From NCBI GenBank assembly GCA_014084085.1, contig NPFB01000001.1, forward strand, positions 146,067 to 210,066: 64,000 bases of DNA, given 5' to 3'. The notes beneath the pieces were generated by a model, which was given only the letters and a program-made list of their open reading frames with translations, did not search any database and had not been told where the DNA came from. This DNA is from Hondaea fermentalgiana. Taxonomy: Eukaryota > Sar > Bigyra > Thraustochytrida > Thraustochytriidae. Numbering within the stretch: the stretch's first letter is position 1; every line of letters begins with the position of its first letter. A program made the position numbers and the translations under genes. Shown here piece after piece: positions 1-37,192 of this stretch.

Positions 1-934
1 GGCGGTTTGGCGTTTGGAGCGCACGCCGCGGCGAGTGGGCGAGAGAGACCCGGAGCAGCAGGCCCGTTTCACATTTGCATTCGAGGATCGTGGACCCCGG
101 ACCATCATCGACGTCGGGGGATCGCCGGCCTCGATGACGGCCGAGACGACGGGGATGGCGACAGCGAAGAGGGGAGGGAGAAGGAGCCCGGGCTGAGAAT
201 GGAGAAAAGGGGTTGGCGCAGAGGCCGCGCGGATTGGAAGGGTGAGGGTTGGTGATTCTGACCTGACTCGCGCGATGAGCGGGAAGGGCTCGGGCGCGAG
301 GACGTGGAGGCGAAGAGCATGTGAGGGAATTGAGGCTGCTGAGAGGGGGCGAGGGGGATCACTCGAGATCTTCACCTTGGGTCGTCCCCGAGATGCTTGC
401 AAGCGTTGCTTTGACGACTGTTTTATCCTTACACTTGTAAAGGGATGTCAGCCACATGAGCGACGGACCGTCCAACAGCTCAAACGCGTACTTTTACCGA
501 GAAATCTATTTCTGTAACAGGCAGGAGTTCTTGATCTTGCGAAAGTTTATCAGGTCTCCACAGAGATATCGGATGCTGCGTTATAGGCTACAACTCTGTC
601 GCGGTGACCTTGTCTTGACATTTGTTCCCTTTTTCTTTCCTTTCAGCCTACGACTTGCTAGGGACATAAGCAATGTGTCCCCTGAACGGATTTATCTCCT
701 CCCTCTCTCTTTTCCCAGCTACTAGGCCTATGATGGAGATAATTCTGATGATGGTGATGATTATGATGATCGATCGATCGATTGGCCTGTGTGCATGCAG
801 ACAGACATGCTGTGGTCTTTTGCGCAAGCAAGCTGCGGCGAGCCTTGCCTGTCGGCCGGCTCGCGCCGACGAGATCACCCGAGCAAACGCACGAGCAAGC
901 GTGAGCTCGCTCACGGTTCCCAAGCCTAAACACG
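1..934. other. Intergenic and 5' flank of the IQ/TPR gene
   Basis: I see no convincing gene here. The reading frames are short, low in complexity and without recognisable motifs. The first 350 bases are purine-rich and GC-rich. The part nearest the next gene is richer in A+T and carries a GAT/GATC simple repeat. It probably holds the promoter and 5' leader of the gene starting at 935. The edge of an upstream gene outside the window cannot be excluded. Confidence 0.5.
730..782. repeat. GAT/GATC-type simple repeat
   Basis: Imperfect GAT trinucleotides run into a perfect GATC tetranucleotide stretch (gatcgatcgatcgatt). It lies about 150 bases upstream of the next start codon and has no coding role that I can see. 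Confidence 0.7.
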
Positions 935-3900
935 ATGCGTGAAACAGGCAGACTGCTGGCCAAGCTGCGACTGCAGCGCGAGGCGATCGTGGAAAAATAC
1001 AGGAATCCCTCGGTGCGATTTAAGCGGAGTGCTGTAATTATCCAACGCGCTGTGAGGAAAGCGCACGCAATCTCCCATCTCGTACCAAGAGCAAAACGTG
1101 CACGTGAGCTCGCACTCCGATGGACCGCAGAGGCAATCTTTAGTTTTCTCGTGCGCAGACAGAGCGATATTGAAGCCAAAAAGCGCACCGCGTACCTCAT
1201 GTTCCAGCACCAGCCCGAAAAGGAGATCTTTGGTTCTCTCGTCGAGGAATTATCATGCGAGTGCGCTCGAACTTCCGTGGATTTTGTCTTTGCAAGCGCC
1301 ACCGATGCGCTTCGACTTGGATATTTTCTGAACTTTTGCATCGACTGCTCCCTTGTCTCAAATCTTGTTACGCTCAAGACCTGCGTTCAAGTCTTTGAAA
1401 AACACGCGTCGCGAGTGACCCGAACAGGCGCGGAAAGCGACAATCATAATGCCGAGGCGGCAAGTCAGGAAAACGAACTCGAACAAAGTCCAACCTTGCC
1501 GGCAACGTCTGCAAGTCCATCGCACAGAGCTCGCAAACATAGAAGATCATGGCTTCTCTGCGATGATTTTTTGACAGTCCTTGTAAAGCTTGCAACTTTG
1601 CTGGACTTTGACAGTCTCGAGGACCTTTTGCGCGAAAAGATCCATCCCGCAATGGAGGACATTGTTGCGACGCGCGCCAGTGGCTCCGTTACGCGGCAAG
1701 GCCAGAGTCTTCTGTTCCCACAAATTGTTCAAGCTCTCATTCGGCATGAGGAGGCCTTCAAGCCACTCTATGTATATTATTCAACTTCAGAGAAAGTGCG
1801 ATTGTCGCACCAAATCCAGACGTGGGAGGACATTTGCGCCGGCAGCGCGACGACCCAAGGGCTCTCGTACGCAAACGCTGTGCAGATGCTAAAGGACTTC
1901 AAAATATCGCCGGGTCTCATGACTTATCTCGACTATTCGGAAGCCTTCTACAATGGTCGGCAAGGCACCTGGGGTGATCAAGTCTGTAGATCCACATGCA
2001 CCTTTTTCGAGCCGGAGGCGAGTCTCAATGGGGGGCGTTGCCGCGCATGTAGACGGCGACGCGTGCATCGCCCATGGGAGGAAAGTCTCCGGCTTCGCTC
2101 AGCGTTTCTTCGCGTTGCGAGCATGGACATGGGTGCGGCTACTGGAGGTGAGGACGACAAGCATGCATCTGGCGGCGAGGGATCCACGACGAACTCGCTC
2201 CTGTCATTTGCGGTCAAGACCAAACAGGCTCGCACACCAACTTTTGCTCAAATTGACGCAATCCAGGAGGAGGAAGGTAACGAAGTCGCCATGGTTAATC
2301 CAGCCGAGTCCATGGGCCACATTGAACGTGTGCTGCGCCTTTTCTATCACGACGACGCAAATGAGACACGCCGAATCCAGCATACAACCGTTCGGATCCG
2401 GCAGGCCCTTGGAAACTGCGACAAACTTCGCTACGCTGACTTTGACGAACATCTCCGCATTGTAGAATCACGCAATCGCGTCCTCGACAATGCTTCGCTT
2501 TCCCTGCCCGAGTTCATGCTACTCACGGTTGACTTTGCTCGCATCATACTTGGGCCTAAAGCACGAGCCTCGCTTTCATCGCTTTATGAGGCCGAAGACG
2601 CTGACGAGCTCGCCACCGCGGCTGGCAAATTTCACAGTCTCCTTCAACTTTTGAGCCATCACTACGAGGTTCTCTTTAACCAGGAGCTCGTGCAAGCGGA
2701 CACAATGCCAGTCGAGCAAACGGATGACCAGCTTCCCGCTGTACAGACGGCGTTAAATCGCCAGCTGAGGCGAGTTTTTGCGGGATACGCTGCTAGGGAT
2801 GACCCGCTTGGACTAGAATTTATCTCCTGGGAATCCTTTCATCTCTTTGCGCGAGAAGCCGGATGCTTCAAGGCCCTTAAGGGCACAGAAATCCAGAACA
2901 TTGCCATTGAAGCCTCTTCACATCAGCAATCCGGCCCAGAAGCTAATGCAGACCCCAAGGCCCTGAGTCTGCAGACATATTCGAAAGCAACAGTTTCTTC
3001 GTCGCCTCGTGCCAGCCATCACCGTCCTTCGCTCTTGGAGAAGCTGGAGAGACTCGATGCGCCGTGCAAGCTTGATCACCGAGGACGCATGTCGTTCGAC
3101 ACCTTTTGCACTGCGGTGGAGCGCCTACTCTTTGCTCAAGCTCGCGCTGAGCACGGTGCTGAGGTGCACATGGACCAACGCTGGTATCAGGACGGGAGTC
3201 GCTCTTCGCGTGGCATATCGCCCGAGGGCAAGATCAAGAGAGCTGCGTCGACGCGACTTCGCGTACTTTACGAGCTATATCAGCCTGCCTCGCGCGGACT
3301 CGGCTCGTCCGCTCGCTTGTACCATACCAAGACCGGCTCGCCCATGGGTCCGCAAATGCTTCTTCACAATGAAAGAGAAGCCACTGCAAGCGAGACCCAT
3401 ACCAGTAGCGGCAGCTCCAAGAACAGCAAGAGCAATAACAAAGGATTCTCCTCATCAGGTCAAAGAAGAGGCAGCTCCGGAAAACGCGACAAAATGACGC
3501 CGCAAGAACTCTTGCACAACCACAAATTACGCCTCGCAACTCAGCAAGTGACCGAGGCAAACAACTCCAAAACGGTGTGGGGAGCCTTGCTAGGTCTCAC
3601 ACAAAACGAACGCAGCCAGGAAGCCGCTGCCTCGAATGGAAGCGGAGCTTCGAGGAGGTCTCAGCGCTCATCACAGTCACCTGTTCGTCGCCGCTCGTCA
3701 ATTTCACGGCAGGAAAATATCCGCGAGCTCCGCGACGAAGTCGATCACGACTTTACAGAGCTCATCGAGGATATCGGCGCGCAAACTCACATTCCTGCCA
3801 AGCCTTCAGGATCTCCTCGTGAGCGACGACGCTTTCGGTCTTCGTTGCAATCGCCGAGGGCACGAGCGCGCAACCTCAAGACAGCAGATCCACATGTTGC

Positions 3901-6118
3901 GCATGATCCAATAGACAAGCGCGGATCCCAGTTTAGCGCCGATAGTACCGATGACTCGTCCACGACGCAACCTGTTTTTCATCTCACCATGCAAGAGGAT
4001 CTCACGGGCGTCGGCCACTTATCCAGAACTCCAAGCCAGCAGAGCCATGACTCGAACGCCGCGGAGAGCGGAGCAGCAAGTATATGCAGCAACAGCTCTG
4101 TAATCTGGACGAGCCATGAAGAGGGGCCCACTGCGCTCGAAGCTGCCGATGCCCGAGCAGAAGCTTCCACGCGATGGCCTCTGTCTCGGTTTCCTCTCGA
4201 CGAGGAAGGAAAGCTCAGAATTGATGGCCGGTTCGACTCGCTTCAGCTCATTACAGCAATGGGTCGCGAACTAGAATCGAGCGAGGGCGCCAAGCGGCAC
4301 GCAGACCGGTTCGGCGAAATTGATCGACCACGCGTGACCTTTCGAACAGCAGCAGCGCCGACCTATGCAAAGCCACGGCCCGTGTTGAAGGCTGCAGGCG
4401 ATGATTCGGATGAGAGCAGTAGTGGAAACATCAAGTTCACTGAAAAGAATGAGGAAGACCTTTCAACTCAAGCTGAGCTTGTGGCGATCTGCGAGGGCCC
4501 TGGGATTCAGGCGATCAATCATGCCGCCGAAGAGAACGGTCTACAACTCAGTCCACGTCATTCGTCTCTTTCTCACGAAACTGTACAGGCCTCTCGTCCA
4601 CTGAGTGCCTGCATTCGGGCCTCCCGGGCCGTTGTCAATCTTGTCGGAGAAAGAAAGCGCATCCAAGCAAGACTCGAGTCTCTTTTGGGGGAAATATATC
4701 GCGAAAAGAATATGTACATTGATACTACATTGGCGCAGTGTGAGCCCAAGGCCCTCGTCATCGAGGATCGCACTACCCATCTTCGCGGCGGAAAGGCTTC
4801 GTCAGCCACAGTCAAGAAGAAGTCCGCACCATCGCGTCCTTCTAAAAACCAGGACAAAGCGGTCACGCAACGCACGATTCCAAAGTGTGTCGAGCCGATA
4901 GCAGAGCAGGAGTCGTTCGAAGAAGCTTTTGTAGCATGCTTCAAGCGCGGCAAGCGAGACAAAAGCATTTCTAAGTTGGAAAAGGCATACGCGATGGCCT
5001 CGCAAGTCCTCGATCGTAACCCGCGCCTCGTAATGGCTGTGCTACGTGAGCTTGTTGCGCTGAAACGTCACAAGGGGGATCTTCTCGGCGCGGAAGCTGA
5101 TGCCGAAAAGCTTTTGCATCTATGTGCTGATGACGAGTTCATTGTTCTACGTTGTCATGTGCTTGCTGCAAAGGCCCAGATCCAATTGCAAAGGGGAGCT
5201 GGGCTTGAAGCCGAGCTCACGGAGCGCGATCGATTGGCACTTGCCACCAGCTACGCTCTCGGAGAGACCACAAGCGACGCAACCGATTTTATCGGTGAGA
5301 CCAAGAAGAATGGTCTGCACGATGCACAAGTGGAACAAGATGAATGTGAAGACGCAGACGAATGCAGACCCATCCTTGAAAGAAAGGTAGGTCTTCCATC
5401 TCAGCGTGCCGCCCAGACCGGCGTTGGCCCATCTTTGGCAACCATTGGCACTGCTCTCCGCATGCAAGGCAAGTTCGACGAGGCGATCGAGATGCACGAA
5501 CACCATCTGAAATACGCGCTTGCTGCTCGCCGCTGGGAAGATCATCGTCGCGCTCTCATGGACAAGGCGACCACATTGAGCGCTGCAGGCGAGAATGAGT
5601 CCGCTCATAAGACTTTTGCAACTCTTCTCGACGCACAAAAGTCGCAACATCAGGCCCAATCCCCCAGTATCATGCTTCGAAAGGAGCGAATAGAGATGCT
5701 TGCCTGCCTTGTGCAGGTGGCCATGAAATCGCCGCGTCTCTTCAAGATCTCTTTGGAAGCGATTCAGGAGCTAGAATTGCTCGCGGAAAGCGTCGGCGAT
5801 CGCAGCAATCTGGCGTTTGCACTAGAAGCCAAATTCAAAGCATGCATGCTCGACGTCGAAGGCCGAGACCTGAGGCCTGCTCTTGCCTTGGCACACAAGC
5901 TAATCCTCTCAAAAGCTGATTCGCGGCAAAAATTGCTTCAACTGCGAACCGCCGTTCAACGCGAAGACTGCTTGGTCCCCGAAGAGCTGAAGAAGTTGGT
6001 TAGCGCTGAAGAAGCACTTGGTCGTGCCATAGTGCTTGATGAGGAACTTGCGATGCGCGGCGGGCCGGATGCCCCTCGTCAGCGCCTCGAGCGTTTGCGT
6101 GCTCTTCTTATAGATTAA
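935..6118 (+). CDS. Large IQ-motif and TPR-like repeat protein, function unknown
   Basis: This is a single uninterrupted frame of 1727 residues starting at the first ATG. Residues about 33-46 (AVIIQRAVRKAHA) form an IQ motif of the IQxxxR type, which usually binds calmodulin or a calmodulin-like light chain. Residues about 100-330 look helical and folded. The middle, about 720-1250, is a long Ser/Arg/Gln-rich low-complexity region that is probably disordered. The last 350 residues are helical, with TPR-like pairs around 1510-1565 (FDEAIEMHEHHLKYALAARR). TPR helices normally serve as protein-docking surfaces. I do not recognise the family. IQ plus TPR layouts occur in ciliary and cytoskeletal scaffolds, but that role is only a guess. 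It converges on the K+ channel gene with 269 bases between the stop codons. Confidence 0.8.
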   Translation: MRETGRLLAKLRLQREAIVEKYRNPSVRFKRSAVIIQRAVRKAHAISHLVPRAKRARELALRWTAEAIFSFLVRRQSDIEAKKRTAYLMFQHQPEKEIFGSLVEELSCECARTSVDFVFASATDALRLGYFLNFCIDCSLVSNLVTLKTCVQVFEKHASRVTRTGAESDNHNAEAASQENELEQSPTLPATSASPSHRARKHRRSWLLCDDFLTVLVKLATLLDFDSLEDLLREKIHPAMEDIVATRASGSVTRQGQSLLFPQIVQALIRHEEAFKPLYVYYSTSEKVRLSHQIQTWEDICAGSATTQGLSYANAVQMLKDFKISPGLMTYLDYSEAFYNGRQGTWGDQVCRSTCTFFEPEASLNGGRCRACRRRRVHRPWEESLRLRSAFLRVASMDMGAATGGEDDKHASGGEGSTTNSLLSFAVKTKQARTPTFAQIDAIQEEEGNEVAMVNPAESMGHIERVLRLFYHDDANETRRIQHTTVRIRQALGNCDKLRYADFDEHLRIVESRNRVLDNASLSLPEFMLLTVDFARIILGPKARASLSSLYEAEDADELATAAGKFHSLLQLLSHHYEVLFNQELVQADTMPVEQTDDQLPAVQTALNRQLRRVFAGYAARDDPLGLEFISWESFHLFAREAGCFKALKGTEIQNIAIEASSHQQSGPEANADPKALSLQTYSKATVSSSPRASHHRPSLLEKLERLDAPCKLDHRGRMSFDTFCTAVERLLFAQARAEHGAEVHMDQRWYQDGSRSSRGISPEGKIKRAASTRLRVLYELYQPASRGLGSSARLYHTKTGSPMGPQMLLHNEREATASETHTSSGSSKNSKSNNKGFSSSGQRRGSSGKRDKMTPQELLHNHKLRLATQQVTEANNSKTVWGALLGLTQNERSQEAAASNGSGASRRSQRSSQSPVRRRSSISRQENIRELRDEVDHDFTELIEDIGAQTHIPAKPSGSPRERRRFRSSLQSPRARARNLKTADPHVAHDPIDKRGSQFSADSTDDSSTTQPVFHLTMQEDLTGVGHLSRTPSQQSHDSNAAESGAASICSNSSVIWTSHEEGPTALEAADARAEASTRWPLSRFPLDEEGKLRIDGRFDSLQLITAMGRELESSEGAKRHADRFGEIDRPRVTFRTAAAPTYAKPRPVLKAAGDDSDESSSGNIKFTEKNEEDLSTQAELVAICEGPGIQAINHAAEENGLQLSPRHSSLSHETVQASRPLSACIRASRAVVNLVGERKRIQARLESLLGEIYREKNMYIDTTLAQCEPKALVIEDRTTHLRGGKASSATVKKKSAPSRPSKNQDKAVTQRTIPKCVEPIAEQESFEEAFVACFKRGKRDKSISKLEKAYAMASQVLDRNPRLVMAVLRELVALKRHKGDLLGAEADAEKLLHLCADDEFIVLRCHVLAAKAQIQLQRGAGLEAELTERDRLALATSYALGETTSDATDFIGETKKNGLHDAQVEQDECEDADECRPILERKVGLPSQRAAQTGVGPSLATIGTALRMQGKFDEAIEMHEHHLKYALAARRWEDHRRALMDKATTLSAAGENESAHKTFATLLDAQKSQHQAQSPSIMLRKERIEMLACLVQVAMKSPRLFKISLEAIQELELLAESVGDRSNLAFALEAKFKACMLDVEGRDLRPALALAHKLILSKADSRQKLLQLRTAVQREDCLVPEELKKLVSAEEALGRAIVLDEELAMRGGPDAPRQRLERLRALLID

Positions 6119-23172: not shown

Positions 23173-25557
23173 TCAAAAACGCAGAATAGACGCGGTTGCA
23201 GAGCCCACCCTCGAGGAGGAGGACCCTCCTCCGGCCGCAGACCCTCTTCGGCCGAGTCCCACCCCTGTTGAAGCCGCAGATGACGAACGTTTCCAACGAC
23301 GCGCAGGATCTGACGAACCATTGGTGCGCGCGCTGTAACGATCAGTCGCACTGCCATCCTCGTCGGCGTATTCATTATTGTTGTTATTGTTGTTGTTGTT
23401 GTTGCTTGAGCTGGTCATTATCATGCTGGCGCTCCCACTCCTATGACTCGCCCGGCTCGTACTGCTGTTGTTGCTGCGAGGCACAACTGGCACCTCTGGC
23501 GCTACACGAGAAGGGTGTCGCTTCGGTTTCGTCAAAGACGATATGTGCCGAGCCTGCCGCGAAGCACGCGACTCGTGACGACCCTCGCTCTCCAACCTAC
23601 GCGAAGAATGCAAGGAAGGCGACTGCGATCCTGTCTCGGGTTCCTGTGCCCGACGCTTTCGCTCCTCGAGCGACTCCACGCGGCTCGTCAGCGTCTCCAT
23701 GAGCTGCAAACCGCGCTCTTGAAACTCGCGACCCTTGTCCAGCTCCGCGCGCATGCTCGCATTCTCAGCGGCAAGACGAACGCGCTCTGCTTCGACAGCT
23801 TCCATCTCGGCCCGAGCTGCATCGCTACGTTCCTGGGACGCCTTGAGATCCTCGAAAAGCTCAGCAATGCGATCTTCCTTTGACTGCTCCACCTCGGCAA
23901 GCTGGGCTTGCTTTTCACGCAGCAAGGCACATGTGCGCAAGTGCTCCTCGCGCTCGTCTTTGAGCTCGTACTCGATGCGATGCCATTCCTCCTGGGCGCT
24001 GGAAGCGCGTTGCTTTTCCGCCGAAATCTTGGACTCGAACTCGTTGCGTAGGGCATCCACAGCACGCGCGTGCTCAGCCTGCAAAAGGCCCACTTGATCC
24101 GCTACGTCAGCAGACACCGACAGGGAGCTCAGTTGCATGGACGCCATGCTACGCTCCTGCTCCGCCTTGTCCGCCTGCTGTCGCGCGTCATTGAGCTCGA
24201 TACGGACCTTGCTCAACGCAATCTCCAACTCGTGGATGCGGTCGTCCTTGTGGTCCAGACTCGCCTGCACACTGCTGTACAACGCTTGAAAGTCAACCTG
24301 CTCATTTATCGTCACACGCGTCTGCACGGCCATTGCGCGTTGCCCAAACGTCAAAGTCGATTTGGTCTCACTTGCAAATGACTCGTGCGGTGCCACATTC
24401 AGAACCAGGGCCGTCATCGAGTTGCCACCGAGTGAGTCTTTCAAAAGACGCGTCAACTTGGCGTCCCGGTACGGGATGTGCTGTTTGCGCTGCGCCAAAG
24501 CGGAAATGCAATTACCCAGCGCGGACAAGCTCAGATTAATCGCCTTTGATTCCATGAAGCGCGTGCCGTGGTGGCTGTGATTTTCCCCGAGCGCCTTTTT
24601 CACCCGCTCACTGCCTGCAAGATCGACCAAGATCAGCTTGCCAAATTTGACCTTGGACTTCTTCCCACCCGCCTGCGCGCTCTCTGCGCACTTGCGCTTG
24701 GTAATATTCAAAATAATGCACGCATGCGATCGACTGCTTGCTGCATTCATGTTCGTCGCAGCGCGGACCCGGTGTTCATCGCCCTCCTGAATCATCGCCA
24801 TGGCTTCCTCGGCAGACTCAACCGCTGCGCACTTGACGCCTTCGATAAAGATGCCTCGTTTTGTATCTTCGCGAATAAGAAGGCTCTTGTGGCCGCCTGG
24901 ACCCGTGCTTGTTGGTGCTCCACCCACGCTCGCGCCGACGCCGTCGCTCGAACCATCCTCGGGGCCGTTGGGACTCAACAGGTCGGTCAGCAACTCGCAA
25001 TAAAGCTGCACGTAAGATAGCGTCACCGAATACTCAAAGGCCTCGTCCTCGTTGATTTCCTTGAAAATGTGTACGAGCGCTCGTGGCACAATGCCAGCTT
25101 CTTTTGATGATTTCCCACCAAACATGCTAAACGTTTTCCCGCTCCCTGTCTGCCCGTACGCGAACACGGTGCCGTTGTATCCTTGTAGCACGCTTGAAAC
25201 AATCGGGGCAGCAACTCGCTCGTACACAGTTTCTTGCGATGTTTGCGCCCCAAGAAAGGAATCAAACTGGAATGTCTCGTTGCGCAGCGCGACAACGTCG
25301 GGAGGCGGGTCTTCGCCATCCTTGGGCGTGGCTGCTCGCTTCGCAGAGAGCTTGCGCACGACAGAGTCTGCGCCACCGATCTCCTCTTCAGGCCCCAGGA
25401 ACGGTCGTAGTCTGCAGTGCACTTTGACTCGCTCTAGACTCGGCTTTCCGCTCGCTCTCATCTTGCGCGTGGTCGGCGTGCCAGCGCTCGAGCTTGTCGC
25501 GCTCAAGTCGCCAAAGCTGCCGCACGTCGCGCTTCGCGCAGTCGGAGTCGAGACCAT
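23173..25557 (-). CDS. Kinesin with N-terminal motor, ARK/ungrouped type
   Basis: The frame extends to a TTG at 25569. The first ATG is at 25557, giving 794 residues. The motor spans about 43-410. All nucleotide motifs are present: the P-loop GQTGSGKT (135-142), switch I NMNAASSRSH, and switch II LVDLAGSER. It should therefore be an active ATP-driven microtubule motor. The segment after the motor (TFGQRAMAVQTRVTINEQVDF) matches the region that follows the motor in plant ARK (armadillo-repeat) kinesins. A coiled coil runs to about 650, consistent with a dimer. The C-terminal 150 residues are Ser/Arg/Asn-rich with a poly-Asn run, and no armadillo repeats are visible. Subfamily placement needs a tree. 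Confidence 0.88.
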   Translation of the reverse strand: MVSTPTARSATCGSFGDLSATSSSAGTPTTRKMRASGKPSLERVKVHCRLRPFLGPEEEIGGADSVVRKLSAKRAATPKDGEDPPPDVVALRNETFQFDSFLGAQTSQETVYERVAAPIVSSVLQGYNGTVFAYGQTGSGKTFSMFGGKSSKEAGIVPRALVHIFKEINEDEAFEYSVTLSYVQLYCELLTDLLSPNGPEDGSSDGVGASVGGAPTSTGPGGHKSLLIREDTKRGIFIEGVKCAAVESAEEAMAMIQEGDEHRVRAATNMNAASSRSHACIILNITKRKCAESAQAGGKKSKVKFGKLILVDLAGSERVKKALGENHSHHGTRFMESKAINLSLSALGNCISALAQRKQHIPYRDAKLTRLLKDSLGGNSMTALVLNVAPHESFASETKSTLTFGQRAMAVQTRVTINEQVDFQALYSSVQASLDHKDDRIHELEIALSKVRIELNDARQQADKAEQERSMASMQLSSLSVSADVADQVGLLQAEHARAVDALRNEFESKISAEKQRASSAQEEWHRIEYELKDEREEHLRTCALLREKQAQLAEVEQSKEDRIAELFEDLKASQERSDAARAEMEAVEAERVRLAAENASMRAELDKGREFQERGLQLMETLTSRVESLEERKRRAQEPETGSQSPSLHSSRRLESEGRHESRASRQARHISSLTKPKRHPSRVAPEVPVVPRSNNSSTSRASHRSGSASMIMTSSSNNNNNNNNNNEYADEDGSATDRYSARTNGSSDPARRWKRSSSAASTGVGLGRRGSAAGGGSSSSRVGSATASILRF

Positions 25558-26990
25558 CTCGCGCGACAACCTCGTGATCTCGCTTCTGCACTCACGCTTC
25601 TCGACTCAACGCTGGCTACCGTTCGCATTGAGAGCGGTCGCTCTCAAACAGGTCACCACTTGGGTCCGCTGAGAGAGAGGAGTTCGAGACACGACGGTCG
25701 ACGACGAACCCAACGGATACATTTGCCATAATACAGCAAGTGAGAGAATGATCCCTTTCGCTTTTGATTGACGGCTCTGCTCTGCCGCTGATGCGGGCAT
25801 GGCTGGCTGTATTGGGACCCGATTCTTAGTTATCACATGCAGAGCTTCTCTGCTGAGAAGTGGAGTGCATCGCATGTCACGAGGAAACTGAAATTCTGGC
25901 CATGACTCACAACACGATATTCTTTTGAGGTTCGAGGAGCAATTCATGCAGCAGTCGGCAATTCTCTCGGTCCGAACATGACATTTTGCAAGCAGAATAC
26001 TTTATCCAAGCGCCTGTTCACCTTCGCGCCTTCAGAAACTCGTCTCTTGGGCTTTGCCGCCATATACCCGTCCAGGTTCTCAGCGACAGACAGTGTCTCT
26101 TGCGTCTTTATCGTTTATCTTTGGTTTTCCAAAGCGGTCTCCAGTTCGCTGCTCGCTCCATTCTGTTCTCGCGAATTCTGTATGTCGTGAAGCATCGCAA
26201 TGTTTCAGGTGGATGCCGAATTCGCCCCCTTGAGAAAAGGGCACTTTTCTCTTGTCGCGTTTGAGAAAGAGGAGAAAGCAGATCATTGGGAAGTACGTGG
26301 AAACGATCGATTTCACCTCTTGAACAAATTTTTGACACACCTCAGGTCTATGACTTGTTTGTCACTTATTTTTCGTGAATGAGAGTCTCTCAATTTCTCC
26401 CGCTGAGCTCCGAGCGCCGGATCAGTGGAGCGTGCTCTTCGCGTCACCAGGCCGACATCAAACGTCGTCGTACTTCATGGATGGCAAACCTCAGTTCTGG
26501 CGAACTCAATCAAACGGGACTCTTCTGCACCTGGGACTTTGAACGGTTGCCGGTCGACCCGGTTTCGTAGAAATTACGTCTCCGCCGCCGCGGCCTGGAT
26601 CTCATACCCTTCCAAAAACTCAATCTGCATAACGACGACCAGAAACCCCCAAGGTCCTCGCAGCCGACAAACCTCTCCGCGTTTCCGCTCTCGCCAGCGC
26701 TCCGCGCCCGCCCCAGGATCCCCCTCCACGGAAGTCACGGCGAGGGACGAAGACACGCGTCCCTCCCTCCCTCCCTCCTCCGCGGCGCCAGCCACACCGC
26801 GCCCGCGCCGGCACAGAGACTTCCCCGCCATTCCCGACTGCGCGCGCGCCTATAACCCACTTGCGGCCGCGCATAGCCGACTTGCCCGCCGCGCTGCCGC
26901 CCTGTCGCGCGAGACACGCGAGGCGCGCGATGGCGCCGCGGCAGACCGCTTCCCGCCGCGCGAGGCGCCGGCGCGCGCGCGCGAGGGAGC
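25558..26990. promoter_or_regulatory. Divergent intergenic region between kinesin and the cytochrome b5-domain gene
   Basis: This stretch of about 1.4 kb separates two divergently transcribed genes. The kinesin-side kilobase is close to even in base composition. The last 350 bases before 26991 are strongly GC-rich. Small frames on both strands lack recognisable domains. No clear TATA box or repeat stands out. Confidence 0.45.
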
Positions 26991-27904: not shown

Positions 27905-30900
27905 TTACTTCTTCCCAAACAATCTCGAAAGGGTCCCTCGACGATGCACTGCGGGTGTTGTCGACGCAGGGACGTCTTCGGGCCTCACAGCCGCTTCGTT
28001 TTGCAATCTAAGAACGTCATTGATTGCTGCCTCAAGAGCATCAATCTCGTCCGGTTCGCCTCCCTTCCACATGGACACATATAACGGATTGCCGCTCCAC
28101 GATATGCCAAAACGTCCTTCCCACGTGCTCATGTCGCTCATCTCTTGGTCCAGGATGCAAGGAATCATGTTCGCGGGTTTTAAACGCCGAAAAGCGTAGC
28201 AGAACTCGTCTCGGCAATTGTCGAGCTCGGACCTGCCTCGATTCACTTTGTTCATGTACTCGCGGGTCACGAAAACCACGACAGCCTTCGACCTGTCGAT
28301 CCCATTAGCCATGGAATCAAGTACCTCCTGGCCGACCTCGATCTCGTCAAGCCAGTAGCGAATTCCGCGCGTCTCAAGCTCACGAGCCACCGCCTTGACC
28401 TTTTCGTGCGTCTCTCTCCCCTCGCCCCATGAATGCGACAGAAAAACGTGATAAGGCTTGTCAGTGCTTGCGATAGACAGACGAGGTTGCCGTGTTGCAC
28501 TTCGACTCTCCACAAACGGCCCAAAAGACGTCAGAGGAAGTCGCTTGCCCCTCTTCACTAAAGATACCTCGCCATTTGTGGCGTCCGCAAGAGCCTTTGC
28601 CGAGGCGCATGCAGCTCTGTGATCAGAGCCATCAGAACTGACATAGAGCTTCGGGTCGAGACCCTTTTTCATGAAGAAGGAATCAATGGAGTCAAGACTG
28701 TTCTTGAGAATCACAACATGACTGCTGAGGCTCCGATCTTCGGGCAACTCAAAGTAGAGCATCAAGCGGTTGCCGCTCGTTTCCATGACAACATCAACAT
28801 TGTCGAATACGATGCTTGCAAAGTCTGCGTACACGCCGTGATCGCCCACACTCACGCGGTTGGGAAGAAGTTGTACGAGGCTGGCGAGTAAACGTTGGAA
28901 AACGCCCTTGGGGAGGATGCGGAACTCAATGTAAGCGAGGGCAAACGTGCGACCCAAATCAGCGAGGGCCTTCTTCTTTGTATCCTCGTCGACAGGCTTC
29001 AAAAGGCTCGGTATAAGAAGAGCGCCTTCTTCATCCTTGTCGCCGATCCATGGACTCGGGCACGCCAGCAACATCGACTCCATCAGCTCCGTGAGATAGT
29101 CGACCGGTTGGTCTTGCCATAGTTGCTCCAGAAGCGCACGACTGGCGACGCCACGGTCTGACCACTCCTCAAGCGCATCATCGAGCTCGCTCGGAAACTC
29201 GCCGCCATCCTCATCGCCACGGCGATACATCAGGTTGTCCTTGTGCCTCTGCATGTGATCCATATCGGGATCGCAAATGACGCACGAGAGGTTCTCCAGC
29301 AACCACTGCGGCCGAATCACGACAAGCTGACGTAGCACATCGTTCTCTCCCGTTGTCAGGTGAATAAGCACCCCAAGCTCATGCATGTATTTCAGCATCT
29401 TGCGCACATCTTCCTTTGGAAGGTTGCACCAATCTTCAGCAATATACTCCACTTCATCCAGCAGCAGAAAGTCCTCTTCTTCGGAGAGTAGGATGTCCAA
29501 ACAATATGACCACCGCAATGGGACCTTGTCCTTGACAAAGTCTTTGTTTGCAACGGACTCCGACAGCGCTTCCCGCAGGTGCGACACGTGTTCATCTGTG
29601 TCTTCACGGTCTTTGTTGTTGATGGGGAAAAATTGAAGTTGTGACGAACGATTCCGTAACACAGCTGGTCTTCCGCCAAGGCCTTTGAGCACCTCACTTT
29701 TAATTGTCTGGTTGATCGCCCTGTGGTCCCCATCATCAGGTACCTGATCTAGGTATGTCCCCACGAGCGCAACGCTGACATTTGGCGCATGCAGACGAAT
29801 GGAGTCGATCCAGAAGCGCAGCGTATCCAGCGCATCCTTTTGCGACGCAAGGGTCTCGTATTTATCTCCGTCGAGTACTTCCTCGAAATGCTCTTTGCCC
29901 AGCACTTCTCGCATGTCAAAGACCAGCACATAAACACCATATTGCGTCAAGAACAGATGGTGCAAAGCATAAAAGACTTCTTGTCCTCCGTAGTCCCAAA
30001 TCGTGAAACTGACTTCTTCGTCCGGTTTGCCAGCTTCTTCCTTGATCTGAAGACGAAGCGGATTTTTCACAGCCATCGCAACATCATAAACATCGAATAC
30101 AAACGACGCACGACCGCGCTTTGAAGAAGACTTTCGAGATGCAGACGCTCGAGCCGCAATTCCAGACATGCGCCGAGAGACACGCTGGGAAAAGCTTTGC
30201 CGACGGTACTTGTACTTTGCAAACTGCTCATAAAGGTCAGCATTGCTAATGGTCTCCCGCTCTTTCCAGTCTCGTGTGCGGGTCAGCGTGAGGTCGACTC
30301 CGATTGTGGAGACGTGGTCGTCGTTAAATGGCTGGTCTAAAAGCGTGCGAATTGTTGATGTTTTGCCAGCAGCGGACTTGCCCACAATCATGAGCTTGGC
30401 GCGGCCCCATCGGACCTTCACGTTGGCCTTTAGACCCCTTTCAGCGATTGCGCTCATATTGTCCAGCTTTTCCTCTGTGAGCTTTACATGGTCCGCGATG
30501 CGAGCCAGGATCACCGATGAAACTTCTCCTTTGTCCAGACTGTTTTTATGTCATGATGGTCACGTGAGTAGGTGCCAATCGTTGCCTCTTGTTTCAAACA
30601 TAATATAACGTACCTCAGTTCTTCAAGCGTGTCGTTACTTTCAAGGGCTGTTGCCAGGGCTCCCGCCCCTGCATTGCCAAATTTGTTCCATTGAAGGCTG
30701 CGAAACCACAAGACAAGCGTCAGAGCACAACATAACCGGGTCCACGGCCTTCTTTTGCAACGTACTACAATTTTTGCAGCAGCGACGTGCTTTGTGCGAT
30801 GGCATGCGCCAACGCCGCTGCGCCGTCGTCGCCGATAATATTGTCGGAAAGACTGTGCTCGTGCAAGTAATGACAGTGTGATGAAATGAAGGGTCGTAGA

Positions 30901-33637
30901 GAAGAAAGCGAACGACAGCATTGAGGTGGCAGTGAATGTGTGTTGGTCAGTCTTTTCCGCTTCGTAGCCGGACTTCTTACGACCAGTCTATAGCTTACTT
31001 TAGCTCCTGCAGCGTCGTGCTTTGTGTGAGTGCATGCGCCAACGCCGCTGCGCCGTCGTCGCCGATTCTGTTATCGGAAAGGCTGGCAATTAAAGACAGT
31101 GTGGAGAAATGAAGGGACATAGCACGATCACGTGATAGAAGAGAGCGAACGACAGCATTGAGGTGGCAATGAACGTGTGCTGGTCAGTCTTTTCTATTTC
31201 GTGCCAGCACTTCTCACGACCAGATTGTAGCTTACTCTAGCGTCCGCAGCGACGTGCTCTTGGCGAGCGCGTCTGCAAGCAATATCGCGCCATCGTCGCC
31301 GATATTGTTTCCTTGTAGCCTGCATTTGCGAATTATGAAAAATTACGGTGAATCAAACGGGTGCAGCACGATCACACGGTAGAAAGAGACAAACGATGGT
31401 GGCACCGTGTATTGATTTGATGGGATTGTAGCAGCGCGTGAGTCAATAAGTCTTCCTGCATCCTCCCCCCCCCCCATTCCTCCCGCGCGCGCGCACTTCT
31501 TCCGTCCAATTATGACTTACTCTAGCGTGTCCAGCGACGTGGTCATTGCGAGTGCGCCAGCTAGCGCCTTAATGCCATCGTTTCCGATCTTTCCGCCTGA
31601 AAGACTATTTTCGTGAAAATAGGGACGACATGGCGAGGCAAACAGTCATATCATGGGCGCATGGTGTAATTGGTCAAAGTGATTGCAGCGCCATGTATGG
31701 ATTTGTGTGAGATCGTTACAGGTACTGGTCAGTTTTCCTCACGCTTTGCAACATTCCCCATTTTAAATCCTCACAATCACTTACAGCAACCCGATTAAAG
31801 ACGTTATTGCGCCTGCCAGCGCTTTTGCGCCATTATCACCGATCTGTTCGCCTGAGAGTCTGTTCTCGTGCAATCAAAAACAAAGCATCACAGCATGGTT
31901 ACATAGTGCGATCATTCGAGTGATGGCACCACCGCGTGTGGGGAAATGAAGATCAATGCAATGTGCGTCCTGGTCAGTTTTTTGCACTCTTTGCGCATTT
32001 CTTGACCTTAACAAAAACCTTACAATAACTTACCTCAGAGACCATAGCGACGTATTTGCTGCGATTGCACTCGCCAGCGCTTTTGCGCCATCATCGCCGA
32101 TATTTCCGCCGTCGAGTCTATTCTCGCGCAATCAAGAACAAAACGTCACAACGTGGTTACATGGTGTAATCGTTTTTTCCAACGATGGCAGCATCATGTG
32201 TGGATTGATGAACATCATTGCAACGTGCGTGTTTGTCAGTCTATGCACTCTTTGCGCATCCCATAACCTTATCTCATCCTGACAACAACTTACTCCAAAC
32301 TTCTCAGTGACCCATTCTCTGCGATTGCACTCGCCAGCGCTTTTGCGCCATCATCGCCGATCTGTTCGCCTGCGAGACTGTTCTCGCGCAATCAAGAACA
32401 AAACGTCACAACGGGGTTACATGGTGTAAACGGACAAACGATGGCAGCACCATGTGTGGATCAATGAACATCATTGCAACGTGCGTGCAAGTCAGTCCTT
32501 TGCACTCTTTTCCGGCATTCCTTCCTCATTATCACAACGACTTACGTCAAATGACCCAGCGACTCATTCACTTTTAGAGCGTCCGCAAGCGCTTTCATGT
32601 CACCATCGCCGATTCTGTGCAGGCTGTGTGCGTGCAATAAAGCCCAAAAAGACATAGATTCGAAATACGAGACGATCAAGGCGTAAAAGTCAGTCCTTTG
32701 CACTCTTCCCGGCAATCCTTCCTCATTATCACAACGACTTACGTCAGAAAATCCAGCGTCGTATTCACTTTCAGAGCGTCCGCTAGCGCTTTCATGCCAT
32801 CATCGTCGATTCTAATCAGACTGTATTTATGCAATTTTTAAGCCCAAAAAGACGAAGATTAGAAATACGAGATGATCCAAGCGTAGAAGTCAGTCCTTTG
32901 CACTCTTTCCGGCATTCCTTCTCTCGTATCCACAACAACTTACTTCAGAAAGCGCAGCGACTTATTCACTTTTAGAGCGTCCGCCAGCGCTTTCATGCCA
33001 TCATCGCCGATTTTGAGCAGGCTGTGTTTTTGCAATTAAGCCCAAAAAGACACAGATTCGAAATAGGAGACGATCAAGGCGTAAAAGTCAGTCCTTTGCA
33101 CTCTTTCTGGCATTCCTTCTCTCGTTATCACAACAACTTACTCCAGAGAGCGCAGCGACCCATTCACTTTTAGAGCGTCCGCCAGCGCTTTCATGCCATC
33201 ATCGCCGATTTTGAGCAGGCTGTGTTTTTGCAATTAAGCCCAAAAAGACACAGATTCGAAATAGGAAACGATCAAGGCGTAAAAGTCAGTCCTTTGCACT
33301 CTTTCTGGCATTCCTTCTCAAATCCTCACAACAACTCACGTCAGAGAACTCAGCGTCGTATTCACTTTTAGAGCGTCCGCTAGCGCTTTTGCGCCATCAT
33401 CATCATCAATTTGGAACAGGCTGTGTTTGTGCGATCATAAACGCCAGAAGAGGCACAGGTTAGAAATTCGAAATGATTAGTGCCCAAACATTTGTGGCAA
33501 AAAGGGTTTTGTTTGAGTAAATGCATCGTCAGTGCAAAAGAATTTGTGAAAAGTGCTCATTCAATCTATCCAACGTACAACACACTCGTGGCGCCCTCAG
33601 CCATCTCCTTGAGTGCATCTGCGACAGTATAATCCAT
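27905..33637 (-). CDS. LRR-Roc-COR-TIR protein (Roco family), 15 exons, one LRR per exon
   Basis: The exons, read in the minus direction, are 33637-33579, 33420-33340, 33219-33142, 33021-32944, 32820-32743, 32623-32546, 32377-32294, 32117-32034, 31859-31785, 31604-31521, 31319-31236, 31082-30999, 30852-30766, 30697-30614 and 30539-27905. Donors are GTAAGT-like and every acceptor is AG. All 14 introns are phase 2. The product is about 1250 residues. Residues about 21-372 are 13 ribonuclease-inhibitor-type LRRs (core IGDDGAKALA). The Roc GTPase follows, with Walker A GKSAAGKT at 426-433, switch II WDYGGQ, and GTYLDQV in place of NKxD. A COR domain comes next. The TIR domain lies at about 1066-1215 (YHVFLSHSW), with Glu1151 in CRDEF at the NADase-type glutamate position. 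Roco proteins dimerise through COR. A receptor or immune role is inferred. An extra 5' exon is possible. Confidence 0.85.
30614..33420 (-). repeat. Tandem array of 13 LRR exon-plus-intron units
   Basis: Similar units repeat along nearly 3 kb. Spacing is 197-201 bp in the half farthest from the Roc exon, 177-264 bp in the middle, and about 150 bp next to it. Each unit holds one LRR exon (75-87 bp) and one intron (68-201 bp). Units starting at 32944 and 33142 are nearly identical through most of the exon and the intron core. This shows that exon and intron were duplicated together, recently in evolutionary terms. Units nearest the Roc exon are more diverged and shorter in their introns. Confidence 0.85.
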
Positions 33638-34404: not shown

Positions 34405-36192
34405 TTATTGTCCATGTCTTGGCTTGGAGGTTCTTGAGGAGCTCTTTTCAGAGCGCGGAAGGGTCGCGCCATCGTTCGCCTCGAGAATTCGATTCGCCTC
34501 CCATTGAATGTATGCAAGATTGATGCTACGTACCCATTTGGCAGAGAGGCGCGGGTCCGTCGTCTGAAAGTAGCGCGGGCGAGACTGCGTGAGAACACGA
34601 AAGGCGTTCTGCCGCTTGGCAACCATAATACCGACTGTGTCCGCCACGGAGTTCCTTCCAGGAGTGACGACCATGTCGGCAAATGAAATGCTGCCTTGCA
34701 TTTCTTCTGGATTCTTGATAAAGTCCTCCTTGCTCTTAAAGTAGACTAGGCCCTCCGAAGTGATCACCATGAAGCGGCGATACCATGTCTTGATGCGACC
34801 GCCACGCTTTACCACATATCCCGACATTGTCATAATCTTGGCCGCTGGCCGCTGGCCATCTTGGTGCTGCACGGCGTCCACCGGGGGCGTGAGCTCGGAT
34901 TGAAGCAACGGGAGTCGATGCGAAGCTTTGTGGGCTGCCGCAAAGGCGGGAGCTGCGCGCGCCGCGGCTCGAGCAGCCTTGGCTCGATCCGACATGGCAT
35001 GCGCATCGGTAGCATGAGCCCCCGTCAATTGCTCGACCGCGACAAGAGTGCCTGTGCCCTCCTCGTCACCGCTGTCCTCATCGTCGCCCTCAGCCTCATC
35101 GTCCCCGTCATCATTGTTGATCCAGTTGAACGCAGCGAGCGTGGCTCGCTTCAACGTGGTTTCGTAAAACTTTGTGGCGCGCCTCGAACCAAGCCTCGAA
35201 TGATCATCCTCATCGAGGGTCGCATCCGGCAACTCGGCCTCTGCATCGCGCTTCGCAAGGTCGTCGCGTACTTCCCGAAGCATTTCCTCCTCGGTAATGC
35301 TCGTTGTGACATCGTCGGGCTCAAGATCCTGCCAGAGCTCTTCGAGCCACTCGTTGCAGTCCTTGGCGGTGGGACGCTGCTCTGCCTCGTCGGCGAGACA
35401 CTCTTCGCAGAGCAAGAGCAAGCTGGATGGCGGATCGTACAGGTCCCCGATCATTTTGAGCTCTGCAGCGTCTGCCGTAAATCCCGTCATGGGTTTCCGT
35501 ACGAGGAATTTGTCGCGCTTTCCCGGCACCTTGCGTGCAATGGTCTCGGCAATGATGATTCCGAAACCAAAGACGTCCGCCTTGGTGTCGTATGCCATGC
35601 CAAAAATTACCTCTGGGGCCATGAACTCGTCCGTGCCACACATGGTCATGACGCGGCCTCGCGCATCTGTGCCTGGGGCGGCGTCGCGGGCAAATCCGAA
35701 ATCGCACAGTTTCGGATTGAGCGTCTCGTCCAAGAGGACATTCTCAGTCTTGACGTCACGGTGGATCAGTCCACGATCGTGCATGTACTCGAGCGCGTCA
35801 GCCACGCCGCGCAGAATGTTCGCGCGCAGCTTCCAGCCCAGCGCGCGACTGGACTGCAGCAGCCGCCGCAGGTCTCCGCCGCGACAGTATTCTGTGGCAA
35901 TGTAAATCGTCTTCTCGTCCACTTTGCACGCGCCAATGTACTTGACCAGTCCCGGATGGTTGCATCTGCGCAGAATGGCGAGCTCTTTGCGAATGTACCT
36001 TTCCAAGTCCGGGTCTGCCAGTTTCTGCTTCTTGATGGCCACGACGAGGCCCGTGTACTCGGCCTTGTACACGGTACTAAAGGCGCCCCGACCGAGGACG
36101 TCGAGGAGTTTCACCTTGCTCTTGTCCAGATCAAAGTCATTGTCGCCAAAGTCCAGCACGGGCGTCATTGACACCGGCCTGTCCATCTGCAT
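34405..36192 (-). CDS. Protein kinase with C-terminal PH domain
   Basis: The frame opens at a TTG (36297). The first ATG is 36192, giving 595 residues. The kinase domain spans about 29-300: Gly loop GRGAFSTVY, VAIKK with Lys54, HRDVKTEN with Asp146, DFG at Asp164, and a GTDEFMAPEV activation-segment end. All catalytic residues are present, so it should be active. The overall look fits the tyrosine-kinase-like or mixed-lineage Ser/Thr group. An acidic and Ala-rich linker follows. The last 130 residues (MSGYVVKRGGRIKTWYRRFM) form a PH domain with a basic beta1-beta2 loop suited to phosphoinositides, so membrane recruitment is likely. It lies on the same strand and upstream of the LRR-Roco gene, but no functional link is shown. 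Confidence 0.85.
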   Translation of the reverse strand: MQMDRPVSMTPVLDFGDNDFDLDKSKVKLLDVLGRGAFSTVYKAEYTGLVVAIKKQKLADPDLERYIRKELAILRRCNHPGLVKYIGACKVDEKTIYIATEYCRGGDLRRLLQSSRALGWKLRANILRGVADALEYMHDRGLIHRDVKTENVLLDETLNPKLCDFGFARDAAPGTDARGRVMTMCGTDEFMAPEVIFGMAYDTKADVFGFGIIIAETIARKVPGKRDKFLVRKPMTGFTADAAELKMIGDLYDPPSSLLLLCEECLADEAEQRPTAKDCNEWLEELWQDLEPDDVTTSITEEEMLREVRDDLAKRDAEAELPDATLDEDDHSRLGSRRATKFYETTLKRATLAAFNWINNDDGDDEAEGDDEDSGDEEGTGTLVAVEQLTGAHATDAHAMSDRAKAARAAARAAPAFAAAHKASHRLPLLQSELTPPVDAVQHQDGQRPAAKIMTMSGYVVKRGGRIKTWYRRFMVITSEGLVYFKSKEDFIKNPEEMQGSISFADMVVTPGRNSVADTVGIMVAKRQNAFRVLTQSRPRYFQTTDPRLSAKWVRSINLAYIQWEANRILEANDGATLPRSEKSSSRTSKPRHGQ

Positions 36193-37192
36193 GGTGGCCT
36201 CTTTCCGCGCAACGAGGCCCTCTCCTCTCTGCTCTCCTTCGCCAACTCCTGACCGCCTTCCCTCCAGCGCAAGCACGCCACGTAAGCTTCCCTTCAATCA
36301 GCCGCAGGCCTCTCGCGCACCCACTCGCCCGCCGCCAGACCCGCGCCAATCGTACTCGCCGCCCGCCGCGCCCGCGAAAGCGCGAAGGCGCGAAAGCTTT
36401 CTGCCGTCGCTGCTCCTCGCTCCCGCGGCGGTGTATATCGCCGCCCACGCTGCGCTGCGTCTCGTCTCTGGTCAGAGGCGGTATGTATGCGTCGCGCGTG
36501 TTGTGTCGTCGTTCGTTCTGTAAGCCAGGCCTGGTAGTAACTAGGGAAGAAGCAGAAGACGCCGCCGCTGCAGCGCGTGCACGCGCGCACGTGCACGGAC
36601 ACGCGCGTGTGCACCGTCTCCTGGAGGCTGAACGAGGCCGCCTCGCGACTCCGCACCGACCCAGCGAGGCCTCCCGGCTCCGCTCCGCTCTGCCCTGCCC
36701 TGCCCTGCCCTGCCGCGCGTCGCGCCTTCGCGGCTGCGCCTTCGCGGCTGCAGCGCCGGGCGCGGGAGAGACGGTGCGAGCGTGTGCGTCTGGTTGGAGA
36801 TTTGATTGAGAGCTGGCAAGATGGACACCGCCCGCGTGACAGCGTGTAAAAGCCCTGCCGCGTGCACCGCGTCCTCGCCGTCCGCTGGAACGCAACGCAG
36901 CTGCAGGCGCCTCGCCACACTGCCAGCAGGATCGCGCGGCTGGGACGCCCGCCCCTGCCTCCGGCCGCACACACACGACGACGGTGCACAACCCTTTTGG
37001 GGCAACGGCTAGGCGCGAGCGGAGCAGGTCTGCACGAGGCGAGCTTTTGGCGCCTGGCCGCAGGGTGTGAGAGACTGGTTGCATGCAGACTCGAGCAGCG
37101 CTGTGAACGTGCGAGCTCGAGTAAGCTAGCAAAAGTAAGCAAACAAGCGAGCTAGCTCGCTCGACGGTGTGCGCGCGCGCGGAAAAGACAAG
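36193..37192. promoter_or_regulatory. Divergent promoter region between the kinase-PH gene and the 777-residue gene
   Basis: One kilobase of very GC-rich sequence lies between divergent starts. It holds short repeats (CCCTG near 36688-36712) and CG-alternating stretches. A 448-residue minus-strand frame crosses it but is Arg/Ala/Ser-rich without domains, and I discount it. Core promoter elements are not evident. Confidence 0.45.

Follow-up and report, generated by a model that had tools for sequence, protein, structure and literature searches.

The reverse strand of a 64,000-nucleotide stretch of the thraustochytrid Hondaea fermentalgiana (contig NPFB01000001.1 of assembly GCA_014084085.1, positions 146,067 to 210,066; hereafter "the window") carries a gene, here called the focal gene, that extends from position 33637 to 27905 and encodes leucine-rich repeats (LRRs) followed by Roc, COR and TIR domains. 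It is one of about 30 Roco-TIR genes in the genome and would probably work like an NLR receptor built on a different switch. Judged by sequence, the anatomy of this family is most likely that of a one-protein alarm, composed of a variable sensor, a nucleotide switch and a TIR output.

The focal gene and its protein

The gene comprises 15 exons, namely a short exon with the ATG, 13 exons of one LRR each and a long exon for Roc, COR and TIR, and these join to a frame of 3753 nt or 1250 amino acids plus the stop codon (Table 1). Every LRR exon (exons 2–14) is of phase 2 at both ends, so that the addition or skipping of any one of them causes no frame shift. All 14 introns run from GT to AG, with the donors GTAAGT (8), GTACGT (3), GTAAGC (2) and GTGAGT (1). 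In-frame stops are present in 13 of the 14 introns; the last one is free of them. Exons 2–6, 9 and 13 depart from the modal length of 84 nt. In exons 3–6 (33219–32546) two residues of the LxxNxI motif, including the Asn, are absent, which gives repeats of 26 residues, and the introns between them are alike. A length of 87 nt for exon 13 is favoured by the focal clade, several members of which have 87 nt in their next-to-last LRR exon.

In the joined protein, Pfam recognized LRR_6 (6.5e-32), Roc (1.9e-17), COR-A (3.9e-10) and TIR_2 (1e-15), and in the long exon alone Roc (4.8e-18), COR-A (1.6e-10, over the cut-off) and TIR_2 (1.6e-15), with no LRR. Among PDB sequences, the LRR part matched best 4r5d, named "Leucine rich repeat protein" (1.7e-49), and ribonuclease inhibitors (2.9e-34 and weaker). 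Further matches were NLRPs as well as 5irm (1.9e-23) and 5irl (6.2e-23), both named uncharacterized, which we take to be NOD2. The long exon matched the Roc domain of LRRK2 (1.8e-10) and entries named "Rab family protein", among them 3dpu (3.1e-8), presumably the bacterial CtRoco. A preliminary description of this DNA, made by a model from the sequence alone, had placed the gene correctly in coordinates, strand and exon number. It had also read the long frame as Roc, COR and TIR only, and the 13 small exons as single LRRs of the ribonuclease inhibitor type, bounded by GTAAGT-like donors and AG acceptors and joined in one frame; these statements and its domain calls agree with the searches reported here.

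The repeats belong to the ribonuclease inhibitor type by their 28-residue LxxLxLxxN pattern and by their relatives, apart from the four repeats of 26 residues without Asn. The protein likewise belongs by sequence to the Roco class, with COR directly after the Roc GTPase domain. The GTPase motifs are kept in most family members that cover them in an alignment of 32 rows, and the Roc-COR core of the focal protein is predicted to be a GTPase with intact GTP-binding motifs. Neither NB-ARC nor NACHT was found by Pfam in the joined protein. On the best reading of the sequence, it would be NLR-like in its working, yet it is not classed as an NLR (STAND) protein, since its switch is Roc.

Comparative support for the exons

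The gene model was tested comparatively, on paralogues within one genome (G000, whose contigs and fetched loci carry our numbers C and L), and all AG..GT stretches of the window and the fetched loci were scanned as candidate exons. A profile built from the 13 focal repeats only (window and 20 loci, at least 6 bits) gave 126 matches on the gene strand versus 4 antisense; 122 of the 126 are of phase 2 at both ends. A widened, length-limited profile (window and 30 loci, at least 12 bits), trained on paralogue exons chosen as phase 2/phase 2, gave 163 matches on the gene strand versus none antisense; 152 of the 163 are phase 2/phase 2 and 132 are exactly 84 nt. These 163 matches count overlapping loci on contig C110 repeatedly and include five in L037, where the LRRs lie in one exon. 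Restricted to phase 2/phase 2 and freed of overlaps, the set comprises 144 LRR exons in 15 genes.

Both ends of the array are also shared. A candidate ATG exon that ends in phase 2 and carries a loosely shared motif (ALKEMAEGATSV in the focal gene), judged by eye without an antisense control, precedes the first LRR exon by 97–164 nt in the focal gene as well as in all 12 paralogues tried, although a shorter reading scored higher in L024. At the last junction, 14 of the 15 genes, including the focal one, have an in-frame acceptor with Leu or Ile as the first full codon, as expected where the next LRR strand begins; the exception is L011.

Roco-TIR genes in the genome

The genome searched (36.0 Mb in 238 contigs) contains 33 COR-A places, 31 of them over the Pfam cut-off, and 73 TIR_2 places, 68 of them over it. 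For 30 of the 33 COR places a TIR place lies at most 2.5 kb downstream on the same strand, two of these TIR places (C38:49538 and C15:113657) being under the cut-off. One unpaired COR place, on C110, runs into N sequence; another, on C13, shares its frame with a weak TIR match (3.9e-5, below the cut-off), and that on C14 lies in an 82-residue frame without TIR. The paralogues that the preliminary description had proposed to look for therefore exist in number. That description was right about domains and paralogues, and it missed the size of the family, its WD40 and actin versions and an exon register that is NOD-like and unlike that of brown algae (see below).

What precedes the Roc domain differs among these genes. 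N-terminal arrays of LRR exons were found in 15 genes, with 5–18 such exons per gene in the filtered set, and on C75 LRR_6, Roc, a COR below the cut-off and TIR stand in one frame, the LRRs being in a single exon. In at least six genes at five loci (L021, L026 twice, L030, L033 and L034), WD40, Roc and COR share one long frame. The TIR lies in the same frame in five of the six; in the sixth, on C38, the frame ends inside the TIR and the TIR place is in another frame. These WD40 genes would combine another type of sensor with the same switch and output. Moreover, L038 (G000:C15:113000-119500, reverse-strand ORF 457-5727) is an actin-Roco fusion with Actin (5.1e-84) before Roc-COR in one frame and a weak TIR place (2.1e-4) further downstream. 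In L025, Pfam gave no match ahead of Roc. Eight more COR and TIR genes are cut by contig ends, gaps or N sequence (L018, L019, L020, L022, L027, L028, L031 and L036); the remaining L018 frame contains no WD40 by Pfam.

Three LRR-Roco genes stand in tandem on the 37.7-kb contig C110 (L012, L013 and L016). Roco genes also occur at or near contig ends or N stretches on C105, C206, C233, C195, C198 and others, so that copy and repeat numbers may be under-counted.

In a tree of 30 rows, the focal gene pairs with L009 (93/80) inside a set of eight LRR genes (99/99), and six other LRR genes stand on a separate branch together with the WD40 and actin genes (98/95). The tree is midpoint-rooted, and the long branches of L037 and L038 are unsure. 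The distribution of LRR genes over two branches means either that the LRR array is ancestral and was later replaced by WD40 or that it was joined twice, and the midpoint root does not decide between the two.

Growth and variation of the repeat arrays

Identity between adjacent introns reaches 94% in the focal gene and 96% in L015; in none of the adjacent pairs is it as high as 60% in six other arrays (L011, L014, L017, L032, C110b and C110c). The smallest intron distance in the focal array is 0.06, versus a synonymous distance (dS) of 1.40 to the nearest paralogue, L009. In L015 the median intron distance is 0.15, versus a dS of 0.21 to L023 and a distance of 0.22 between the introns of both arrays. 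These small distances indicate that LRR units multiply inside genes and, in the focal gene, did so long after its split from the known paralogues. Of 124 exons of 84 nt, 37 have their most similar exon within their own gene (8.8 expected from shuffling, with a maximum of 20 in 2000 rounds). For 11 of the 15 last LRR exons, the most similar exon is the last one of a different gene.

We assigned the exposed strand (concave) positions by the LRR pattern, as positions 2, 3, 25 and 26, counted from the exon's first Leu, together with the split codon. Their mean entropy is 3.38 bits versus 1.75 bits elsewhere. Among 38 close within-gene exon pairs, which are not independent, the ratio of nonsynonymous to synonymous rates (dN/dS) is 1.75 at concave positions and 0.40 elsewhere, with concave values of 3.55 in L015, 3.11 in L024 and 2.27 in L023. 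Minimal change counts in six sets gave 72 nonsynonymous to 9 synonymous changes on the concave face versus 98 to 75 elsewhere (Fisher 1.5e-7), with a deficit relative to neutrality outside this face (p=3e-6). Measured against introns, concave positions change faster in L015 (p=0.0004) and in L010 (p=0.006, with 3 introns versus 4 exons). The contrast between the concave face and the remaining positions is firm.

The TIR domain

A profile of the family TIRs, built from a chosen subset of 20, matched AbTIR (4e-11), TIR-1 of C. elegans (5.8e-10), Cat1 (2.6e-9) and Roq1 (1.9e-8) in the PDB, and also RPV1, RUN1 and SARM1 (1.7e-7); Toll-like receptors rank after these. By this profile, the family TIRs are closest in sequence to NAD-cleaving TIRs. 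A Glu invariant in the 20 TIRs (focal 28207–28205) aligns with the Glu of WVHKEL in TIR-1, which we take to be the catalytic residue. Of the 32 rows aligned, 30 have a residue at this position, and in 29 of these it is Glu. The Trp of WxxxE, a known TIR motif, is not kept.

Outside the Roco-TIR genes, 43 of the 73 TIR_2 places have no adjoining COR row. The one of these that was read, L039 (G000:C106:9300-13300), combines LRR_6, a protein kinase and TIR_2 in one frame, and no Roc-COR was found there. Kinase-TIR proteins are known from choanoflagellates, according to a passage of PMC6040629; this and all other papers are cited here for individual passages.

Exon register and comparison with known systems

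The 84-nt LRR exon begins with a split codon X, followed by LxxNxI ... LxxL, which puts the exon border four residues before the Asn. Human NOD/NLRC receptors are vertebrate proteins and, unlike the Roco-TIR family, have a NACHT switch and other effectors. Their LRR exons are alike, with one 28-residue repeat of the ribonuclease inhibitor type per frame-preserving exon, the border inside the beta-strand and the motif XLaaNaL...LaaL in the same register (PMC2747839; PMC6642158). The passages of these two papers do not state the intron phase. In brown algae the LRR exons are 72 bp long and of phase 2 (PMC11378527). From the consensus given there and the selected sites 14, 16, 18 and 19, we infer a border about 3 residues after the Asn, some 7 residues from the border here. 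The focal family thus resembles the brown-algal genes in that each phase-2 exon of the array on a Roco gene encodes one LRR, and differs in modal length (84 nt) and border. Tetrahymena has arrays of 90-bp phase-2 LRR exons that expand clonally, with a unit of 30 residues and no Roc-COR-TIR in the passages of the paper (PMC6564038). With these differences in border and exon length, the exon-per-LRR layout probably arose more than once.

The brown-algal LRR-ROCO genes (Teng 2024, PMC11378527) are also alike in being an expanded Roco family with exon shuffling and variable concave residues, and they are proposed immune receptors. Unlike the genes here, they have, in the passages of that paper, LRR-ROC-COR as sole architecture, with an added C-terminal peptidase or DUF900 in two small groups, and no TIR. 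Other SAR species, Schizochytrium aggregatum included, have at most four ROCO copies, and so do the unicellular kin of brown algae, large repertoires being tied to multicellularity (PMC11378527). Roco and TIR are joined in the TPR-ROCO-TIR of Chondrus crispus, which has TPR in place of LRR and five ROCOs altogether (PMC11378527), and TIR is named in the legend of a figure on Trichoplax Roco proteins (PMC4104024); for neither do the passages describe an exon-per-LRR array.

Other systems share parts of this anatomy. LRRK2 and the bacterial Roco proteins have the Roc-COR core by sequence, with a kinase or no further effector and no known TIR. Plant TIR-NB-LRR proteins (Roq1, RPV1 and RUN1) unite sensor, nucleotide switch and TIR in one chain, in a domain order opposite to that of this family. 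Their TIRs match our profile, whereas their switch is NB-ARC, for which a Pfam profile search of the genome gave no match at E 0.001. Fungal NACHT-WD40 incompatibility genes set a WD40 sensor on a nucleotide switch, but this is a STAND switch rather than Roco. A weak search for prokaryotic or viral relatives of this Roc-COR-TIR, consisting of one alignment-based scan each of genome_contigs and viral_contigs with two peptide patterns per scan, gave 47 and 32 pattern stretches, respectively, and no relative confirmed by tblastn. In the open-licence PMC literature we found no paper on a TIR domain in thraustochytrids and no description of Roco, LRR-exon shuffling and TIR as a large unicellular family. 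As far as these passages reach, Roco proteins, LRR-exon shuffling and TIR receptors are each already known, and what seems new is their union in a large family of a unicellular organism.

Coordinates and neighbouring genes

Table 1. Features of the focal Roco-TIR gene in the window
Feature	Positions	Strand	Evidence
Exon 1, ATG exon, 19 aa + 2 bases	33579..33637	-	similar candidate exon in 12 paralogues tried
Exon 2, LRR 1, 81 nt	33340..33420	-	joined frame, LRR exon profile
Exon 3, LRR 2, 78 nt	33142..33219	-	joined frame, LRR exon profile
Exon 4, LRR 3, 78 nt	32944..33021	-	joined frame, LRR exon profile
Exon 5, LRR 4, 78 nt	32743..32820	-	joined frame, LRR exon profile
Exon 6, LRR 5, 78 nt	32546..32623	-	joined frame, LRR exon profile
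Exon 7, LRR 6, 84 nt	32294..32377	-	joined frame, LRR exon profile
Exon 8, LRR 7, 84 nt	32034..32117	-	joined frame, LRR exon profile
Exon 9, LRR 8, 75 nt	31785..31859	-	joined frame, LRR exon profile
Exon 10, LRR 9, 84 nt	31521..31604	-	joined frame, LRR exon profile
Exon 11, LRR 10, 84 nt	31236..31319	-	joined frame, LRR exon profile
Exon 12, LRR 11, 84 nt	30999..31082	-	joined frame, LRR exon profile
Exon 13, LRR 12, 87 nt	30766..30852	-	joined frame; wider profile scan chose donor 3 nt earlier
Exon 14, LRR 13 (last repeat), 84 nt	30614..30697	-	joined frame, LRR exon profile
Exon 15, Roc-COR-TIR, stop at 27905	27905..30539	-	Pfam, joined frame, last-junction comparison
Roc GTPase region (P-loop GKSAAGKT, WDYGGQE, VGTYLD)	29645..30403, extent approximate	-	Pfam Roc 4.8e-18; LRRK2 alignment
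COR-A	29264..29488 (genome place C1:175330-175554)	-	Pfam 1.6e-10
TIR_2 domain	28061..28447	-	Pfam 1.6e-15; profile match to NAD hydrolase TIRs
Glu codon aligned with Glu of TIR-1 WVHKEL	28205..28207	-	family TIR profile

On the reverse strand of the window, a protein kinase with a C-terminal PH domain (34405–36297) lies upstream of the focal gene, and a kinesin motor gene is present at 23173–25569. Elsewhere in the genome, a PfaD-type polyunsaturated fatty acid synthase domain (G000:C199:16683-18020, 5.7e-213) lies in a frame of 2194 residues; this enzyme is associated with thraustochytrids, and its presence supports such a source for the genome.

Discussion

In the working that we propose, the LRR face would bind a cytosolic ligand of microbial, viral or non-self origin, and binding would free the Roc-COR switch, with a change in its nucleotide or dimer state. 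This change would gather TIR domains, which would then cleave NAD+ or produce a NAD-derived signal, and the cell would be killed or arrested. In a single cell, a TIR NADase might protect kin through suicide or dormancy of the cell, or act as a second-messenger enzyme. With its frame-preserving exons, the LRR array could gain or lose repeats, or have them left out during splicing, and still keep its frame, by which specificity would be diversified. That the ligand comes from a pathogen or is non-self, we infer from the size of the repertoire, the sensor swaps and the concave variation. The innate immune or self/non-self role suggested by the preliminary description fits these three features and the type of TIR as well, and we keep it as a proposed role.

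It could be argued that the long ORF is the entire gene and that the LRR exons are either remnants or parts of a different transcript, given that a GTG start candidate lies in frame within this ORF and that the last intron has no in-frame stop. We consider this highly improbable, because the LRR exons, their phases, the ATG exon and the last junction are common to the paralogues and purifying selection acts on the LRR codons outside the concave face (ratio about 0.48, p=3e-6). The same sharing of exons, phases and last junction, together with this purifying selection, makes a relic or unspliced LRR array unlikely. As to the origin of the layout, brown algae are possibly nearer kin of this protist than animals are. 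Inheritance of the exon-per-LRR layout from an ancestor common with animal NODs would agree with the equal repeat class, length and register (PMC2747839; PMC6642158). We give it little chance, as brown algae cut the repeat about 7 residues away (estimated from PMC11378527) and the exons of Tetrahymena are 90 bp long (PMC6564038). The register shared by this protist and vertebrates is most simply taken as convergence on a cut inside the strand.

On the side of function, the TIR could be an assembly scaffold rather than an enzyme, as in Toll-like receptor signalling; the TIRs of these receptors match the family profile too, more weakly, and the Trp of WxxxE is not kept. With NAD+ hydrolases as the best profile matches and the Glu kept in nearly all rows, we regard a scaffold as unlikely. 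Slightly more room is left for sensors of prey, host or kin, or for roles in mating or colony behaviour, with a TIR that signals through a NAD product without killing, although we think this rather unlikely as well. Glu-bearing TIR relatives are mostly enzymes of death or defence, which the profile matches bear out. The same LRR, Roc-COR and TIR anatomy would nevertheless do for such sensing, and pathogens are only one of several stresses to which the ROCO genes of brown algae respond (PMC11378527).

Several results weigh against an NLR-like receptor family with an enzymatic TIR and a selected concave face. L014, which is outside the 20-TIR profile, has Gln at the Glu position, and a single-sequence AlphaFold2 model of the TIR alone is too poor to be of use (pLDDT 42.9). 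NACHT occurs at 8 places in the genome, 6 of them over the cut-off, so that Roco-TIR need not be the sole NLR-like system. The concave dN/dS from close pairs is only 0.75 in L029 and 0.33 in L010, the pooled concave excess over neutrality has p=0.067, and the concave rate relative to introns is not significant in L023 (0.43), L024 (0.44), L029 (0.31) and the focal gene (0.23). L015 has probably undergone positive selection on the concave face, which is unproven for the focal gene, and relaxed constraint could account for part of the concave variation.

The reading that we favour remains that of Roco-TIR genes working like NLR receptors. More tentatively, and with somewhat less than even confidence, we suggest that they may form an NLR-equivalent repertoire of a unicellular organism on Roco switches, with one TIR output, exchangeable sensors and arrays re-amplified gene by gene and possibly re-assorted by exon skipping, independent of brown algae and in the register of vertebrate NODs. 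If so, Roco-TIR would join NB-ARC and NACHT as a receptor switch, and one more lineage would have evolved LRR arrays with a single repeat per exon. The 33 COR places, 30 of them beside a TIR, stand against at most four ROCO genes in the unicellular kin of brown algae (PMC11378527), and, as a thraustochytrid, this protist would be a culturable system for studying whether suicide immunity exists in single cells.

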